Of a stretch of DNA of 47,747 nt, positions 27,341-47,715 are shown piece by piece (positions within the stretch are counted from its first letter, which is position 1; every line of letters begins with the position of its first letter). The DNA is taken from assembly GCF_007860185.1 (NCBI RefSeq), contig NZ_SJPY01000014.1, forward strand, positions 1 through 47,747, read 5' to 3'. This DNA is from Novipirellula aureliae. GTDB lineage: Bacteria > Planctomycetota > Planctomycetia > Pirellulales > Pirellulaceae. The translations under genes and the position numbers were made by a program. The notes below the pieces were generated by a model. It did no database searches. It was not told the DNA's origin and saw nothing but the letters and a program-made list of their open reading frames with translations.

Positions 27341-28024
27341 ATGAATGACACATTCATCGAATTTATCACGTCACAACTGACCGAATCCGTACCGAAACTG
27401 GCCAGTCTGTATGGCACTTGGGCGACGGCTCAACGGTTGAAACGAGCCGAAGACCTATTTGAAAGGCTGCGTCGTTATCGTGGTTTGACCTTTTCTGACT
27501 TTGCGACAAGCGACGCGGGGTTTCATTTGCTGGAAAAAGTTGTTGAACGAGTTAAGGCTGAACACTGCGAAGCAAAGCGAGAGCATTTTGCGAACTTGCT
27601 GGTGTCGACTTGGATCGACAACGGGCCGCACCAAGCGGTTTTTGATGAGGCCGATTTGTTTCTACGTGCGATCGATAGGTTCACCGATGTCCATCTTTAC
27701 TTGTTGGCGATTCTGCATGAAGCCGATGTGAAGGCATCCATTCCGTTTCGCAAGTTACAAGAATCGGTAGAGGACGCCACGGCGGATTGTGACCGTCGCG
27801 GGATTACTTTGGTCGCCCTTAATGATCTTTGCGCGGTTTTCGCAATGGTCAACCGATCGTGGGACTTGAATCGAAAGAAAGAGAGTCGGCCAATGTTTTC
27901 TGGTTCGCTCAGCCCCGAAAACATTTCTCGCAAGTGTTACCACGCGATCACACAACGAGGCATACGTTTTGTTGATCGCGTCGTTCGTGAACCGATAGTT
28001 GCTGCAGGAGGCCACCCGTCATGA
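27341..28024 (+). CDS. Unknown helical protein coupled to the reverse transcriptases
   Basis: 227 residues. Its stop overlaps the start of the first reverse transcriptase (ATGA at 28021), so it is translationally coupled. The protein is all-helical (ERLRRYRGLTFSDFATSDAG; EHCEAKREHFANLLVSTWID; FTDVHLYLLAILHEADVKAS) and somewhat resembles small abortive-infection-type helical proteins; I do not recognise a family. No nuclease motif is obvious. DRT3 loci described so far consist, to my knowledge, of two reverse transcriptases and an RNA, so this would be an extra component: an effector, a sensor, or an unrelated rider. Confidence 0.65.
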   Translation: MNDTFIEFITSQLTESVPKLASLYGTWATAQRLKRAEDLFERLRRYRGLTFSDFATSDAGFHLLEKVVERVKAEHCEAKREHFANLLVSTWIDNGPHQAVFDEADLFLRAIDRFTDVHLYLLAILHEADVKASIPFRKLQESVEDATADCDRRGITLVALNDLCAVFAMVNRSWDLNRKKESRPMFSGSLSPENISRKCYHAITQRGIRFVDRVVREPIVAAGGHPS

Positions 28025-29217
28025 CGAGTCGGCTCACCAACCCAGACTACCTGCGCAAATTAACACGCTCCGACGACCCACGCCGGTTTTCTGAGGTGAG
28101 CAACGGTACGAATTCACTGCTGCCCCAACTTGCCGAAGAATTCGAGCGGCGGATCTACCTACCATCGCCTCTGAAGATGGTTGATGGTGGTCGACGTATT
28201 CTTCATTCCGCGTCCACCTACGCGGACGTGCTCTTCTTGCGTCATAGTTGCAGGATGTTGAGGCGAAAACGCGGTGTCCGGTCATTGAACCGAAAACAAA
28301 TTGCAACCCAGATCGTAAAAATCCTGGAGGCCGATGTGTCTCATCACATTTTGCGGACCGACATCAGTGACTTCTTTGGGGCGATACCGGTCTACGATGC
28401 GGTGAGTCTGGAATCGGTTCAAGCCTGCTTTCCTGCTGTCGAGTACGGCTGGTGCATGAAGATTCTGTCCGCCGATCCGTACTCGGGCAACAAATTGCCA
28501 CGAGGATTGTCGATCAGCGGCGAATTGGCGGAACACTTCATGGTTGCGTTCGATCGTAGTGTGATCAGTCACGAAGGAGTCGTCTTCTACGGTCGTTTTG
28601 TCGATGACATCATCATCGTCACCGCGTCGGACGATTTGGATGAACTGAAAGAGGCTGTCAGCGGTTACTTGCCGGAATGCCTGTCCTTCAATCCGGAAAA
28701 AACGCAAACGTGCCGGTGGGGTGACAACGGTCAGGCCGCTAAAGGATTCGACTATCTCGGATTTTCATTCTGTCGCACGCAAAACATCGCGAGCAAGAAG
28801 CGTTCCGAGGTACACGTGGGAATCGCGACCAGCAAGATGCTCCGGTACAAAAAGAGAGTGAAATTGGCATTCAACGACTTCATTGAGAATAAAGATTTTC
28901 GCCTTCTACTGGATCGGATTCGATACCTAACGGGTGGCTGCTCGGTTTACAGCAGTTTCCAGCGACGACGGATCACCTTGGGACTATCTGCGTCTCATCG
29001 GGACATCACCGATGACGCGGCGTTGCAGGCATTGGATGCTTACCTTGGCAATTGGATCCGCAAAGCGCCGCTAGATGGTGCGCGGTCATGTCTGACGAAA
29101 AGCCAAAAGGCAAGTCTACGAAGGCTATCATTCACAGCGAGCTACGCCAACAACATTCGCCATCGCTTCACAGGCAAGCGTCTTTGGGAAATCCGAGGTC
29201 TTTTCAAGCATGTCTAA
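28021..29217 (+). CDS. drt3a: Reverse transcriptase, Drt3a-like
   Basis: 398 residues. Reverse transcriptase motif A is RTDISDFF (Asp114, Phe118), motif B is KLPRGLSISGELAEHFM, and the catalytic motif C is GRFVDDIIIV (Asp195-Asp196). The segment after it, KGFDYLGFSF, is the motif D/E region. RGLSIS with a following EL.E...FDR is typical of the UG-group defence reverse transcriptases. It overlaps the second reverse transcriptase gene by eight bases. In the DRT3 antiviral system two different reverse transcriptases act together with a structured RNA, Drt3a being the RNA-templated one as I recall. The active site is complete. The reverse transcriptase call is firm; the Drt3a assignment rests on pairing, size and the downstream RNA. 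Confidence 0.75.
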   Translation: MTSRLTNPDYLRKLTRSDDPRRFSEVSNGTNSLLPQLAEEFERRIYLPSPLKMVDGGRRILHSASTYADVLFLRHSCRMLRRKRGVRSLNRKQIATQIVKILEADVSHHILRTDISDFFGAIPVYDAVSLESVQACFPAVEYGWCMKILSADPYSGNKLPRGLSISGELAEHFMVAFDRSVISHEGVVFYGRFVDDIIIVTASDDLDELKEAVSGYLPECLSFNPEKTQTCRWGDNGQAAKGFDYLGFSFCRTQNIASKKRSEVHVGIATSKMLRYKKRVKLAFNDFIENKDFRLLLDRIRYLTGGCSVYSSFQRRRITLGLSASHRDITDDAALQALDAYLGNWIRKAPLDGARSCLTKSQKASLRRLSFTASYANNIRHRFTGKRLWEIRGLFKHV

Positions 29218-31099
29218 AATGCAATCCATCGACACTTCGGATCGGGATCGCGTGTTGCTAAGCGAGATCTTGCCTCACGAAGTTCCGCCACGATTTTCCC
29301 TCCGATCGGTTTACCGTCGGATGCGTGGACCGTCGTTGACCTCGCTCGATGACGCCCTGTTTCAACATCAAAACGACGCCAGCGGTCCGCCGGAGACGGT
29401 CCCCTACACATTCTCGCTTTCAAGGGGACGGAAAACGCCTCGCGACATTCATGTGATGCATCCGTTTCACTATCGCGAAGTGGTGAACTTTTACGAAACG
29501 TACGCAACCCAAATTCTGTCAAACTGTTTGAAGAGCCAATGGACGTTGAGATCGCCATCGGGAATTGCCCGTCGAGCGAAGGATATCGGCTACCAGAACC
29601 AGCAGCCCGGCATTCAAAGCGAATCCGAATCCGACGAAAGCCCTGTCTGCTACTTCGCCTACGGCCCGTTCAATTTGCTATACGCCTTTTACGGATCACG
29701 TGATTACGAGCGACTGGAATCGAAGTTTCGCTTTGTTCGGGCAATCGACGTGCAGTCTTGCTTTGGCAACATCTACACGCATTCGATCGCATGGGCTATT
29801 CGCGGCAAGGCAAACGCGAAACGAAGGGGCGACCGGTCCGCTTACTTCACATTTGATGCCAGATTTGACTCCTTGATGCGATCTATGAATCACGGTGAAA
29901 CGCACGGTATTCTGGTCGGCCCGGAGATGTCGCGTATCTTTGCAGAGCTGATTTTGCAAACCGTTGATACTGCGGTTTTGGGTACCCTGGCGGATCGAAT
30001 CGAATTCGGAAAACAATGCGAGGTTCGCCGATATTTGGATGATTTCTTTATCTTCTTCAATGAAGCCAGCATCGCCGACCAAGTTGAGCAAACCATCCGT
30101 GGGGAGTTGAAAAATTGCAAGCTCTACATCAATGACGCAAAAACGCTGGAGACCGAATCGCCTTTCATGTCGAACTTGAGTGCCCTGAAGCATGAACTAA
30201 GCCATTTGGTTGACGACCTGCACGAGTCGTTTCTTCGTGCCCGCCAGGAAAAGCGTCCGATTCCCAAGAGCGTGTGCCGAGTTGCGTTTCGGAAAATCAA
30301 AACCAAGGTGGCACAGTCAGGTTGCCACTATGAATCCTGCATCAGCTACGTGCTCTCGATCTTGCAGCGAAAAGTGACTGAAGCGAACAGCAGTCTCTGC
30401 TGCCAGTTTATCGAAGGCGGGATGGTGTCTCTTCTGAGCAAACTGCTGGAACTTGACTTTCGTTATCAGGTCGCCATCAAGGTTGCCACGATTTATCAGT
30501 TGATATCCGACAAGGTTCACGCTGATTTCGACTTGGAGCCGTCAGTGGTTGAAGATCTGAATGAACGAATTGCCGATGAAGTCACTCACTTAGCGATGAA
30601 TGCGATGTCACGAGAGGCTCCGCCTTGTTTGCCCTTGTTGGTTGTACTGATCCCGATTGCAAAGTTGGATCTAGTTCATAACGTCAATCCAAGCTTGGCT
30701 GAAACCATCTGGAAACACTCACAGGTTCAGTCGCGGCCCGCCGAAGTCGACTATTTTACGGTCGTCAGTTTGCTCTATTTCTGTGGTGATCGTCGCGCCT
30801 ATGTGCGGCTTGTTCGAGAGATTGTGAAAGCGGCAAAACGATTCCTTCGGGAGTCGAAGGACAAGGGATTGCGAGCTGACTGTCTCATGCTGGCCGCAGA
30901 TCTTGCCTGTTGCCCACTTCTTAAAGAGGACGTGAGAAAAGTAATGCTACGTCAGGTTTTTGGTTGGGTGAATATGCCGAAAGATGTGGCCGGGGCACTA
31001 CAGGAGCTCGCTGGCAAAAGCATGTTTTTCGATTGGGACACGACCGTTTCCACGACGACCTACCTACTTGAGAAGCAGATTCCTCGATGTTACGCTTAA
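29210..31099 (+). CDS. drt3b: Reverse transcriptase, Drt3b-like
   Basis: 629 residues. Motif A is RAIDVQSCFGNIYTHSIAWA (Asp180), followed by GETHGILVGPEMSRIFAELI (motif B, with GP) and RRYLDDFFIFF (Asp277-Asp278). The IYTHSIAWA and HGILVGPE..RIFAE phrases recall the Abi/UG reverse transcriptases and especially the second enzyme of DRT3. A 300-residue helical C-terminal domain with no recognised fold follows (RAYVRLVREIVKAAKRFLRE and similar). ATG 29210 lies within the end of the first reverse transcriptase gene. As I recall, Drt3b makes its strand without a nucleic acid template; whether the needed residues are kept here must be checked by alignment. The untranslated region after the stop holds the candidate RNA. 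Confidence 0.75.
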   Translation: MSKMQSIDTSDRDRVLLSEILPHEVPPRFSLRSVYRRMRGPSLTSLDDALFQHQNDASGPPETVPYTFSLSRGRKTPRDIHVMHPFHYREVVNFYETYATQILSNCLKSQWTLRSPSGIARRAKDIGYQNQQPGIQSESESDESPVCYFAYGPFNLLYAFYGSRDYERLESKFRFVRAIDVQSCFGNIYTHSIAWAIRGKANAKRRGDRSAYFTFDARFDSLMRSMNHGETHGILVGPEMSRIFAELILQTVDTAVLGTLADRIEFGKQCEVRRYLDDFFIFFNEASIADQVEQTIRGELKNCKLYINDAKTLETESPFMSNLSALKHELSHLVDDLHESFLRARQEKRPIPKSVCRVAFRKIKTKVAQSGCHYESCISYVLSILQRKVTEANSSLCCQFIEGGMVSLLSKLLELDFRYQVAIKVATIYQLISDKVHADFDLEPSVVEDLNERIADEVTHLAMNAMSREAPPCLPLLVVLIPIAKLDLVHNVNPSLAETIWKHSQVQSRPAEVDYFTVVSLLYFCGDRRAYVRLVREIVKAAKRFLRESKDKGLRADCLMLAADLACCPLLKEDVRKVMLRQVFGWVNMPKDVAGALQELAGKSMFFDWDTTVSTTTYLLEKQIPRCYA

Positions 31100-31275
31100 A
31101 GCACACAGGTGGAACTCCGCTCGTGACTGGATCAAAGTTTACTCTGGTCCGACATCGAGTGCGGCCGAATGGCGAAGAGGTGAGGTCACTTGCACGTGAC
31201 CGATCCTCAGCCCCTCGGGGCACACACACTTTCCACTTGGGCTCATCAGGGACTATGTGCCTGATGAGTTTTTTT
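31100..31275 (+). ncRNA. Candidate DRT3 non-coding RNA
   Basis: This stretch directly after the second reverse transcriptase has no supported gene but is rich in structure. GGTCAC/GTGACC forms a perfect stem with a six-base loop (31184-31201). GCCC-CTCG-GGGC is a tetraloop hairpin (31210-31221). Single-stranded CACACACAC (31221-31229) follows at once, and a long terminator closes the unit. DRT3 systems have been reported, as I recall, to use an ACACAC stretch in their RNA as template for poly(GT). The match of tract, position and flanking hairpins makes this a strong candidate. Boundaries are estimates; the 5' end may lie inside the reverse transcriptase gene. Confidence 0.6.
31242..31275 (+). 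terminator. Strong intrinsic terminator of the DRT3-like locus
   Basis: CTCATCAGG and CCTGATGAG form a perfect nine-base-pair stem with a nine-base loop (31242-31268), followed by seven T. It ends the plus-strand transcript before the convergent ImmA/IrrE gene. Confidence 0.9.
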
Positions 31276-31308
31276 ATTCAGTGATCCGTAGTTCGGGCAT
31301 ACTGCTGG

Positions 31309-32250
31309 CTACAGCAATTGCCCGATTCGGATTTCAATGTAGTCGCGTCCTTCATCGGTGTTGATACAAGTCGACCGCAACCTAGCTTCGTTTTTTTCCC
31401 AGAACAGTTCGACGGCCTCTTCTTGTGAGAGACCGACACACTTCGATTTGAACGCACCAATGATGCCAGACAGTCTATTGCGAAATGCGTCGTCGCTGCT
31501 GAGGTACTCTCGTTCAAAAGCTGCTCTCAGCTCGTTGACCGAAAGTTGGTTTCCATGTTCTTTCGGCAATAGTTGAACGAACAAAGTTGACGAGCCAAAG
31601 AAGGGGTTCTCAAGTACCGACGCGACGACGGTTTGGTTCTCATTGTGATCCGCCCGAAACGCATTTGGACTGACGTTCTGCGCTTCCTGCCGCAGTTCAA
31701 ACGCGGTCTCCTCGGACATTCGGAGAGTCCTCGACCATTGCCAACGAATATCGGCGCCAGAAAACGCGACAACTGAGGCATTGAGTAACCCCAGTTCCTC
31801 AGTGAGGTTGCAGACTCTCACGGCAGCGGCCAATTCAGAGACCCTGGCACGCTTTGCCAGTCGCTTCAACGCGCCAGCGACGACGGGAAGTTGCCCTGCG
31901 TCCTTACGGACTTCCGCCAATGGCAACAACAAACAGGAGGCGACATCGTTGACGCGTCTCTCTTCGTCGCTGTCCGATGACAACATGTCCTCGAACGATT
32001 CGCCAAACATAGAGGGAATGCCAAGGATCAAATGCCCGAGTTCGTGTGCGAGCGTAAACCTTCTCTGCGCTTTGGTCAGTTCGCCGTTGAGTCGGATAAT
32101 GGTTCGATCATCGTAATGAAGGCACCATCCATCGCAGCCTGGGGTATCTGATGTGCGGACTTCGATGCCAAAGTCGTTGACGAGCTTTTCCGGCGCTGCT
32201 GGAAAATGTTCCGCAGCATACGACTCAACTTCATCGAGAGAAATCATCAA
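31309..32250 (-). CDS. ImmA/IrrE-family metallopeptidase
   Basis: 313 residues. The zinc-protease motif HELGH (His69-Glu70-His73) sits in RRFTLAHELGHLILGIPSMF, with a downstream Glu-rich helix (DSDEERRVNDVASCLLLP) supplying the usual third ligand in the ExxANxFA-like position. Two adjacent start codons (32250 and 32247). Such proteases cleave repressors or antitoxins after a signal. The C-terminal 170 residues, including NALRADHNEN-like and RNRLSGIIGAFKSK segments, are extra and not recognised. It is the last gene of a three-gene minus-strand unit with a small protein and a GNAT protein, convergent with the DRT3-like locus. It probably controls one of these partners by proteolysis. Confidence 0.85.
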   Translation of the reverse strand: MMISLDEVESYAAEHFPAAPEKLVNDFGIEVRTSDTPGCDGWCLHYDDRTIIRLNGELTKAQRRFTLAHELGHLILGIPSMFGESFEDMLSSDSDEERRVNDVASCLLLPLAEVRKDAGQLPVVAGALKRLAKRARVSELAAAVRVCNLTEELGLLNASVVAFSGADIRWQWSRTLRMSEETAFELRQEAQNVSPNAFRADHNENQTVVASVLENPFFGSSTLFVQLLPKEHGNQLSVNELRAAFEREYLSSDDAFRNRLSGIIGAFKSKCVGLSQEEAVELFWEKNEARLRSTCINTDEGRDYIEIRIGQLL

Positions 32251-46932: not shown

Positions 46933-47715
46933 CTATTCTTTTTCTTCGGCTGCGGAGCCGGGGGGCGCTTTGGTCCCTTTTGATTTTTTTTCACTGTTTT
47001 TCAGACGATAGCTCCGCCCTGTAATCTTCATGATCTCGGCCGATTGCAAGAAGCGATCTAAGATCGCACTGGCACTCGGAACATCGCCAATCAACTTGCC
47101 CCAGTCCTCTAGTGGACGATTCGTTGTCATGATCGTGCTGCGAACTTCATGACGACGCATGATGATTTCAAATAGATATTCACCGCTGCGTTTGGGCAGC
47201 TGCTTCATCCCCATGTCATCGATGATCAACAGATCCGGCTTCAAGTAACGAGCCAGTACCTTTTCTTCACCACCCATCGCCTCGTCATGCAAGAAGTCTC
47301 GAACAACGTCGAAGATGCTGCGATAGTAAACGATTGCACCTGAGCGAATGACGGCATGACCAACGGCCTGCGCAAGGTGGCTCTTTCCGGTCCCCGGTGG
47401 GCCACACAACAGAACGTCTTTCGCACTTCGCAAGAAGTGTCCACTGGCCAACTCAAACACCTTTGCACGATCGATACTGCGATTAAACGAAAAGTCAAAA
47501 TCCTCGAGTCGACGCACATCCCGAAAGCTTGCACGTCGCACCCCGCGATCGATCTTTCGGTCATTGCGAACCAACGTCTCATCGGCCAACACCAACTCCA
47601 AGAACTCCTGGTGTGTTAGTCCGCTTGCTCTCGCTTCTTGTAACCGAACTTCAAGCGTTTCGGCCATGCCGCCGAGACGAAGTTCTCTTAACATTCGTGA
47701 TAATGATTCATTCAT
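46933..47715 (-). CDS. istB: IS21-family helper ATPase IstB
   Basis: 260 residues from ATG 47715, with AAGGAGG upstream. Walker A is CGPPGTGKSHLAQAVGHAV, Walker B is LLIIDDMGMKQL, sensor 1 is STIMTTNRPLEDWG, and the N-terminal helix-rich MNESLSRMLRELRLGGMAET matches IstB. It is an AAA+ DnaA-like ATPase that loads the IstA transposase on target DNA. The start overlaps the istA stop (TAATG). The C-terminus (KKSKGTKAPPGSAAEEKE) is encoded partly within IS terminal repeats. Confidence 0.95.
   Translation of the reverse strand: MNESLSRMLRELRLGGMAETLEVRLQEARASGLTHQEFLELVLADETLVRNDRKIDRGVRRASFRDVRRLEDFDFSFNRSIDRAKVFELASGHFLRSAKDVLLCGPPGTGKSHLAQAVGHAVIRSGAIVYYRSIFDVVRDFLHDEAMGGEEKVLARYLKPDLLIIDDMGMKQLPKRSGEYLFEIIMRRHEVRSTIMTTNRPLEDWGKLIGDVPSASAILDRFLQSAEIMKITGRSYRLKNSEKKSKGTKAPPGSAAEEKE

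Follow-up and report, generated by a model that had tools for sequence, protein, structure and literature searches.

Does the stretch directly behind two tandem reverse transcriptase genes of a planctomycete, Novipirellula aureliae, encode the non-coding RNA (ncRNA) of a DRT3 system? The whole stretch of DNA analysed (the window) comprises 47,747 nt, and an earlier prediction from its letters alone had pointed to a structured RNA at 31100-31275. In our view, the locus very probably encodes an anti-phage system of the DRT3 type, in which 31106-31239 would be the ncRNA, ACACACAC its template, and Drt3b the protein-primed partner. Evidence at the sequence level comes from the families to which the proteins belong, their residues, how well the RNA is conserved and how it is predicted to fold, and where the tract lies. 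Every biochemical step and the defence outcome are carried over from the work on E. coli, as far as described in the available text of PMC13174585.

Both reverse transcriptases were recognized by family models. The first matched Drt3a in PADLOC (PDLC03768, 3.1e-82) and NCBIfam (NF041747, 240 bits with an equivalog cut-off of 200), and the second matched Drt3b in PADLOC (PDLC03784, 3.9e-143) and NCBIfam (NF041748, 427 bits, cut-off 350). The drt3b gene lies directly downstream of drt3a, with an overlap of 8 bases. In a single-sequence search of the PDB, the sole solved relative of Drt3a at E 0.001 was the DRT3 entry 9z6y/9z6z (9z6y_A, E 8.5e-17); for Drt3b, the best two of 11 solved relatives at this level were DRT3 entries as well (9z6y/9z6z and 26cz).

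Residues of Drt3b were mapped by alignment to PDB chain 26cz and to seven named plasmid homologues. Chain 26cz served as residue reference because the E. coli Drt3b proteins of loci L151-L153 deviate from the residue numbers in PMC13174585. It was taken as E. coli Drt3b with a 108-residue tag (deduced as 775 minus 667), and every named residue checked fits its letter. Positions E24, R78, D180, F185, R242, Y275, and D277 of the window protein correspond to E22, R71, D182, F187, R241, Y276, and D278 of E. coli Drt3b, with V181 in place of I183 and L276 in place of V277. The penultimate Y628 corresponds to the priming Y666; the alignment to 26cz stops one residue before it. Both reading frames are whole, and catalytic and priming residues are intact. 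Across the Drt3b proteins compared, the R241-motif pattern was matched in 78 of 88 frames, and the E22 position is occupied by D in L037, L087, and L110. With both proteins above the NCBIfam cut-offs and the selecting and priming residues of Drt3b in place, the tandem pair of DRT3 type that had been predicted is supported.

Seven ORFs of at least 20 aa touch 31100-31276, the longest of which (102 aa) is on the minus strand. A plus-strand ORF of 65 aa (31087-31284) is covered by the comparison with Neorhodopirellula pilleata Pla100, another member of the Pirellulaceae; the 16 base differences split 4, 6, and 6 by codon position (hand count) and therefore show no coding pattern. With short ORFs alone present, it was fair to state that no gene follows the second reverse transcriptase. 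The fold of 31100-31276 had a z of -5.5 and none of 200 dinucleotide shuffles was as stable. The predicted fold consists of a 9-bp closing stem (P1) around four hairpins, with the last one ending at the tract (Table 1). Thus, as judged by predicted fold and conservation, drt3b is followed by a putative structured RNA of the DRT3 kind, in which a stem-loop adjoins a loop that contains ACACAC.

Table 1. Predicted features of the DRT3 locus, in window coordinates
Feature	Position	Strand	Description or basis
drt3a	28021..29217	+	Class 2 (UG3) reverse transcriptase, 398 aa, catalytic motif FVDD
drt3b	29210..31099	+	Class 1 (UG8) reverse transcriptase, 629 aa, catalytic motif YLDD
Putative DRT3 ncRNA core, P1 5' strand to P1 3' strand	about 31106..31239	+	Fold z, conservation, like layout in L147/L148
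P1 closing stem, 5' strand CAGGTGGAA	31106..31114	+	Predicted fold, complementarity
Long hairpin inside P1	31117..31163	+	Predicted fold; one compensatory change vs L040
Small hairpin GCC-GAAT-GGC	31164..31173	+	Predicted fold
Two-part hairpin, outer GAGG/CCTC, inner GGTCAC/GTGACC	31177..31208	+	Predicted fold, complementarity
Hairpin GCCC-CTCG-GGGC, ends at tract; putative 5' template boundary	31210..31221	+	Predicted fold
Tract ACACACAC, predicted single-stranded; putative poly(dTdG) template	31222..31229	+	Fold; tract kept across homologues
P1 closing stem, 3' strand TTCCACTTG	31231..31239	+	Predicted fold, complementarity
Terminator-like hairpin and seven T	31242..31275	+	Predicted fold, complementarity

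Several details of the original prediction had to be adjusted. The stretch CACACACAC is located exactly at 31221-31229, as described, but its first base, C31221, pairs in the last hairpin, leaving 31222-31229 as the single-stranded AC part. The two small hairpins said to flank it both exist (31184-31189/31196-31201 and 31210-31213/31218-31221), but both are 5' of the tract; on its 3' side lies the other strand of the long-range stem P1, which had been overlooked. The terminator, described as perfect, has a perfect 9-bp core followed by seven T, but its arms (31242-31253/31257-31268) are only 92% complementary, and the hairpin was left unscored by a consensus terminator scan. The tract ACACACAC is present once in the 47.7-kb window, counting both strands, where 1.23 occurrences are expected by shuffling. 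It is not rare by itself; its position is what counts.

Among 241 genomes of the family, the Drt3b profile gave any match in 27 and matched nearly end to end in four. These are (i) the window's genome; (ii) N. pilleata (genome G789, locus L040); (iii) G583 (locus L147); and (iv) G798 (locus L148). In G803 the profile matched in two pieces, and the remaining family matches are parts around the reverse transcriptase core. A draw of 294 genomes from the phylum contained 31 in which the PADLOC Drt3b model matched at all, nearly full length in the window alone; in the class (397 genomes) 21 match this model, with full-length matches in the window and G583. The two Drt3b pieces of G803 (L149/L150 on G803:C222) are about 22.5 kb apart on one contig, and the 300 nt downstream of the tail piece contain no AC run of at least 6.

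Between the window and N. pilleata, 119 of 135 RNA bases (31105-31239) are kept, compared with third-codon-position identities of 60.1% for drt3b and 62.6% for drt3a, which argues for an RNA under constraint. Past the terminator, identity between the two falls to 22-50% in 40-column windows. The RNAs of G583 and G798 are 79-100% alike in such windows, and their drt3b third codon positions 78.6%; this pair says less about constraint, given these values and the similarity that resumes downstream after a gap. The fold was of like layout in all four family genomes (z of -6.0 in N. pilleata and -3.95 in both G583 and G798). By energy alone, P1 was not significant (p of 0.58 in the window, 0.96 in L040, 0.85 in G583, and 0.56 in G798), so that the case for this stem in the window and its three relatives is built on pairing-preserving base changes and on the family-wide pattern. 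As read by eye from the folds of the window, N. pilleata, and G583, and counted from inside, the fifth pair of P1 changes from U-A to C-G, the seventh occurs as G-U, G-C, or A-U, and the eighth as A-U, G-U, or G-C, all with pairing kept. In G583, the 5' strand of P1 contains two bulged bases. The hairpin adjoining the tract is formed by GCTC/GAGC in L147 and by GCTCCG/CGGAGC in L148. One of its pairs changes from C-G to U-A on both sides according to alignment pair counts, which were trusted for this last helix only because the alignment from model R1 (see below) misjudges P1. The four family genomes do not differ in the tract ACACACAC or in the TTTCC that comes after it. On the next branch of the Drt3b tree, although placed there with a long-branch warning, L044 (Verrucomicrobiaceae) has a fold with a similar closing stem and a terminator-like hairpin.

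These data bear on the possibility that the system is decayed or silent in the window's genome. Decay might be read from the family distribution, as only 5 of the 27 genomes with a Drt3b-profile match (among 241) are covered along most of the profile, and in one of these 5 the match is split. Given whole frames, intact catalytic and priming residues, and an RNA that appears to be under constraint, we consider decay in the window very unlikely.

To place the predicted template of the DRT3 RNA in a wider frame, we compared 8 plasmid loci (7 of them used), the 80 best of 473 genome loci, 3 loci of E. coli, the window, G583, and G798. Counts refer to the 88 loci with an intact Drt3b frame. L038 (Drt3b in two pieces) and L089 (running off its contig) were left out of the counts, and the broken Drt3b frames of L072, L080, L085, and L100 were left out of the final counts. 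An AC run of at least 6 was found within 400 nt of the drt3b stop in 83 of 88 loci, compared with 14 of 226 control pieces further along; the sequence behind drt3b was shorter in L078 (234 nt) and L086 (264 nt). An earlier count, which retained the broken frames and did not contain G583, G798, and E. coli, gave 78/87 versus 16/225. L068, L070, and L094 have a run of 5 (CACAC), and a tract of at least 5 is thus present in 86 of 88 intact loci. As expected, homologous loci thus carry the AC tract in all but two cases. Moreover, every one of the eight phyla in the Drt3b tree includes tract-bearing members. The anticipated extension of DRT3 to a distant phylum holds, but the system was already spread over at least eight phyla.

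The closing stem was assessed by matching the 22 bases after the tract with the RNA start, against shuffles. With a threshold of p < 0.01, the stem was significant in 42/83 loci compared with 1 of 223 controls, and with p < 0.05 in 49/83 compared with 12/223 control places, all controls being drawn from loci other than L040; the window and its three relatives are outside the loci with a significant stem. Enrichment was milder in a separate helix count, in which a flush hairpin with a score of at least 5 was present in 48 of 86 loci and 86 of 447 controls, and P1 with a score of at least 8 by helix length in 39/86 versus 70/447. Single-sequence folds, a weak test, gave flush hairpins in 51 of 83 loci where 35.5 were expected. 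As many loci are close kin, none of these counts for tract, stem, and hairpin represent independent events. Conserved structure in the homologues, which had been expected along with the tract, was hence found in part: the closing stem is significant in about half of the loci and not significant in the remainder.

The RNA might alternatively fold and bind the complex as a scaffold, with the template being another stretch, or none in this lineage. The long, distant branch that the four full-length family proteins form in the Drt3b tree would leave room for such a change of role. We consider it even less likely than decay, given the identity of ACACACAC and TTTCC in these four genomes and the tract behind drt3b in nearly all intact loci. 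Least probable, and already disfavoured, is a mere 3' untranslated end of drt3b with a strong terminator and a chance AC run, a reading compatible with the expected frequency of ACACACAC, the non-significant P1 energy in the window, and a scan that found no promoter-like site in 30900-31400, but at odds with conservation that exceeds third codon positions and ends at the terminator in the comparison with L040, and with a tract in the expected place in 83/88 loci versus 14/226 controls.

A covariance-model search seeded on the window region, as originally suggested, failed to find the RNAs of other phyla. Searched against 90 sources, model R2, which carries the correct structure, matched the window and L040 and gave one further weak match in antisense. 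Model R1, in which P1 and the next stem are shifted by one base, additionally recovered L148 (E 0.033) and L147 (E 0.05), both weakly. No further loci were matched by either model, and the RNAs of the E. coli loci L151-L153 were not found. When 240 family genomes were searched, R1 recovered the RNA from just two, the window's genome and G789. At gathering thresholds, Rfam 15 matched neither the window nor the RNA of L151, L152, L153, L040, L147, or L148. The published covariance model for DRT3 ncRNA is described as built from the E. coli-like subgroup 9 (PMC13174585). No relative of Drt3b was found in the viral contigs scanned.

The two intact loci in which no AC run of at least 5 was found in the 400 nt behind drt3b, L066 and L076, both belong to Snodgrassella. 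Here, a minus-strand AC tract is located about 1.4 kb upstream of drt3a (2250-2258 in L066 and 2273-2279 in L076), with a hairpin beside it and closing-stem p-values of 0.003 and 0.014, respectively. Five other GT runs of at least 6 in these loci gave closing-stem p-values from 0.12 to 0.91. Possibly, Snodgrassella encodes its DRT3 RNA ahead of the operon and in reverse orientation; this candidate is a lead only, because the upstream region was examined after the loci had proved exceptional.

A supported Drt3b clade of 19 members (L035, L039, L067, L081-L083, L090, L092, L093, L097, L099, L101, L102, L106, L107, L111, L112, L114, and L118) is distinguished by the short distance (31-77 nt) from the stop to the AC tract and by a C-terminus mostly like SQEVY. 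The RNA of this clade may thus be compact, comprising a single hairpin and a short closing stem.

The DRT3 genes of the window are situated inside a restriction/helicase island (15499-41351). Its order, i.e. DrmD, DrmMI/type IIG, a specificity-like protein, Drt3a, Drt3b, a DruE-like helicase, and a UvrD-like helicase, is kept in N. pilleata at 57-90% identity. G583 and G798 have DRT3 without matches to other island genes in 19 kb; beside their DRT3 loci, there are five Acido-Lenti-1 RNA matches (L147 10788-11048, L148 4805-8311). The operon starts with a gene of 227 aa (27341-28024), which overlaps drt3a by 4 bases and which Pfam, PADLOC, and NCBIfam assign to no family at E 0.001. It was considered as a part of DRT3 and dropped, as no match at E 0.001 was obtained in the other DRT3 loci searched. 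This gene occurs in 2 of 397 class genomes; the second, G655 of the same family, has a 48% homologue and is absent from the Drt3b-profile matches listed. Convergent to the RNA, an ImmA/IrrE-type (M78) peptidase similar to PADLOC capP is encoded on the minus strand (31309-32250). The 227-aa gene, the M78 peptidase, and a 200-aa gene had no match in the N. pilleata locus at E 1e-5. An IstB (IS21) ATPase is found at the window edge (46933-47715, minus strand).

The nearest described counterpart is DRT3 of E. coli (UG3, UG8, and ncRNA; PMC13174585; PDB 9z6y, 9z6z, 26cz). In that system, ACACAC of an RNA encoded behind drt3b is reported to template poly(dTdG) synthesis by Drt3a. Synthesis of poly(dCdA) by Drt3b needs no nucleic-acid template; it involves E22, R241, and R71, with Y666 as the primer. 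Ends of the DRT3a product are reported to show an excess of bases from the stem-loop next to the template. The other main DRT3 paper is that of Deng et al. 2026, as cited by the review PMC13314766. E. coli and the window share the order drt3a-drt3b-ncRNA with a short gene overlap, the selecting and priming residues of Drt3b, and a loop with ACACAC that adjoins a stem-loop, a layout that is predicted in the window. They differ in the surrounding island and in the two substitutions for I183 and V277, and the window proteins are only 25-26% (Drt3b) and 27% (Drt3a) identical to those of L152/L151.

Two further systems offer partial parallels. In DRT10 (UG17 reverse transcriptase, ncRNA, and SLATT; PMC12632851), the template is directly behind a stable stem-loop, a proposed 5' template boundary like the telomerase boundary element; its A-B-A' repeats are longer and variable, whereas the window has two reverse transcriptases and an AC dinucleotide tract. 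Drt3a of the window matched RT_UG17 (PDLC03754) at 3.1e-23 compared with 3.1e-82 for Drt3a, and no SLATT was found among the window ORFs scanned. DRT9 likewise combines a Class 2 reverse transcriptase with an RNA template for simple repeat DNA (PMC12489045, PMC12483538); its product is the homopolymer poly-dA (according to PMC13174585), and the available text of these sources names no second reverse transcriptase, in contrast to the two of the window.

By analogy with E. coli DRT3, ACACACAC is very probably the template for GT-repeat DNA. Drt3a would copy the tract (31222-31229) 3' to 5' into GTGTGT until halted by hairpin 31210-31221, then slip back one repeat and restart, thereby generating poly(dTdG). 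We infer this repeated copying with slippage from the hairpin, as it sits where the boundary stem-loop of DRT10 and DRT3 sits. Drt3b would use its own Y628 as primer and no nucleic-acid template to make poly(dCdA), and E24 and R242 would dictate the alternation of A and C. Both strands would anneal to double-stranded (GT/AC)n, which may accumulate when a phage blocks host nucleases, so that the cell is stopped.

The occurrence of a DRT3-like layout, two reverse transcriptases and an AC-tract RNA, in a planctomycete is supported by family models, residues, and the tract in homologues. The locus represents a divergent version of DRT3, a system already known, whose proteins are named automatically by current libraries. 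A published account of a planctomycete DRT3 RNA, or of a moved RNA, was absent from the matches listed, which covered few subscription papers, and the string 'planctomyc' does not occur in the main text of PMC13174585.

A joint reading of these observations, which we put forward tentatively as possible rather than probable, has three parts: a shared minimal RNA layout, a separable trans-acting RNA, and island helicases as guards. All DRT3 RNAs, from at least eight phyla, may share a telomerase- or DRT10-like layout of boundary hairpin, (AC)n, and 3' strand of the closing stem, and this layout may reach down to the compact RNAs of one clade, with the tract 31-77 nt after drt3b. The RNA may be a separable module acting in trans, moved upstream and to the other strand in Snodgrassella. 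The helicases of the island in the window and N. pilleata might act as guards, as RecBCD does in E. coli.

DRT3 is a recent example of DNA guided by protein instead of nucleic acid. A distant and well-kept member such as the planctomycete locus helps to show which parts are near-constant, namely the AC tract and the selecting and priming residues. The flush hairpin and the closing stem are also near-constant, though less uniformly, while most other sequence of the RNA varies.
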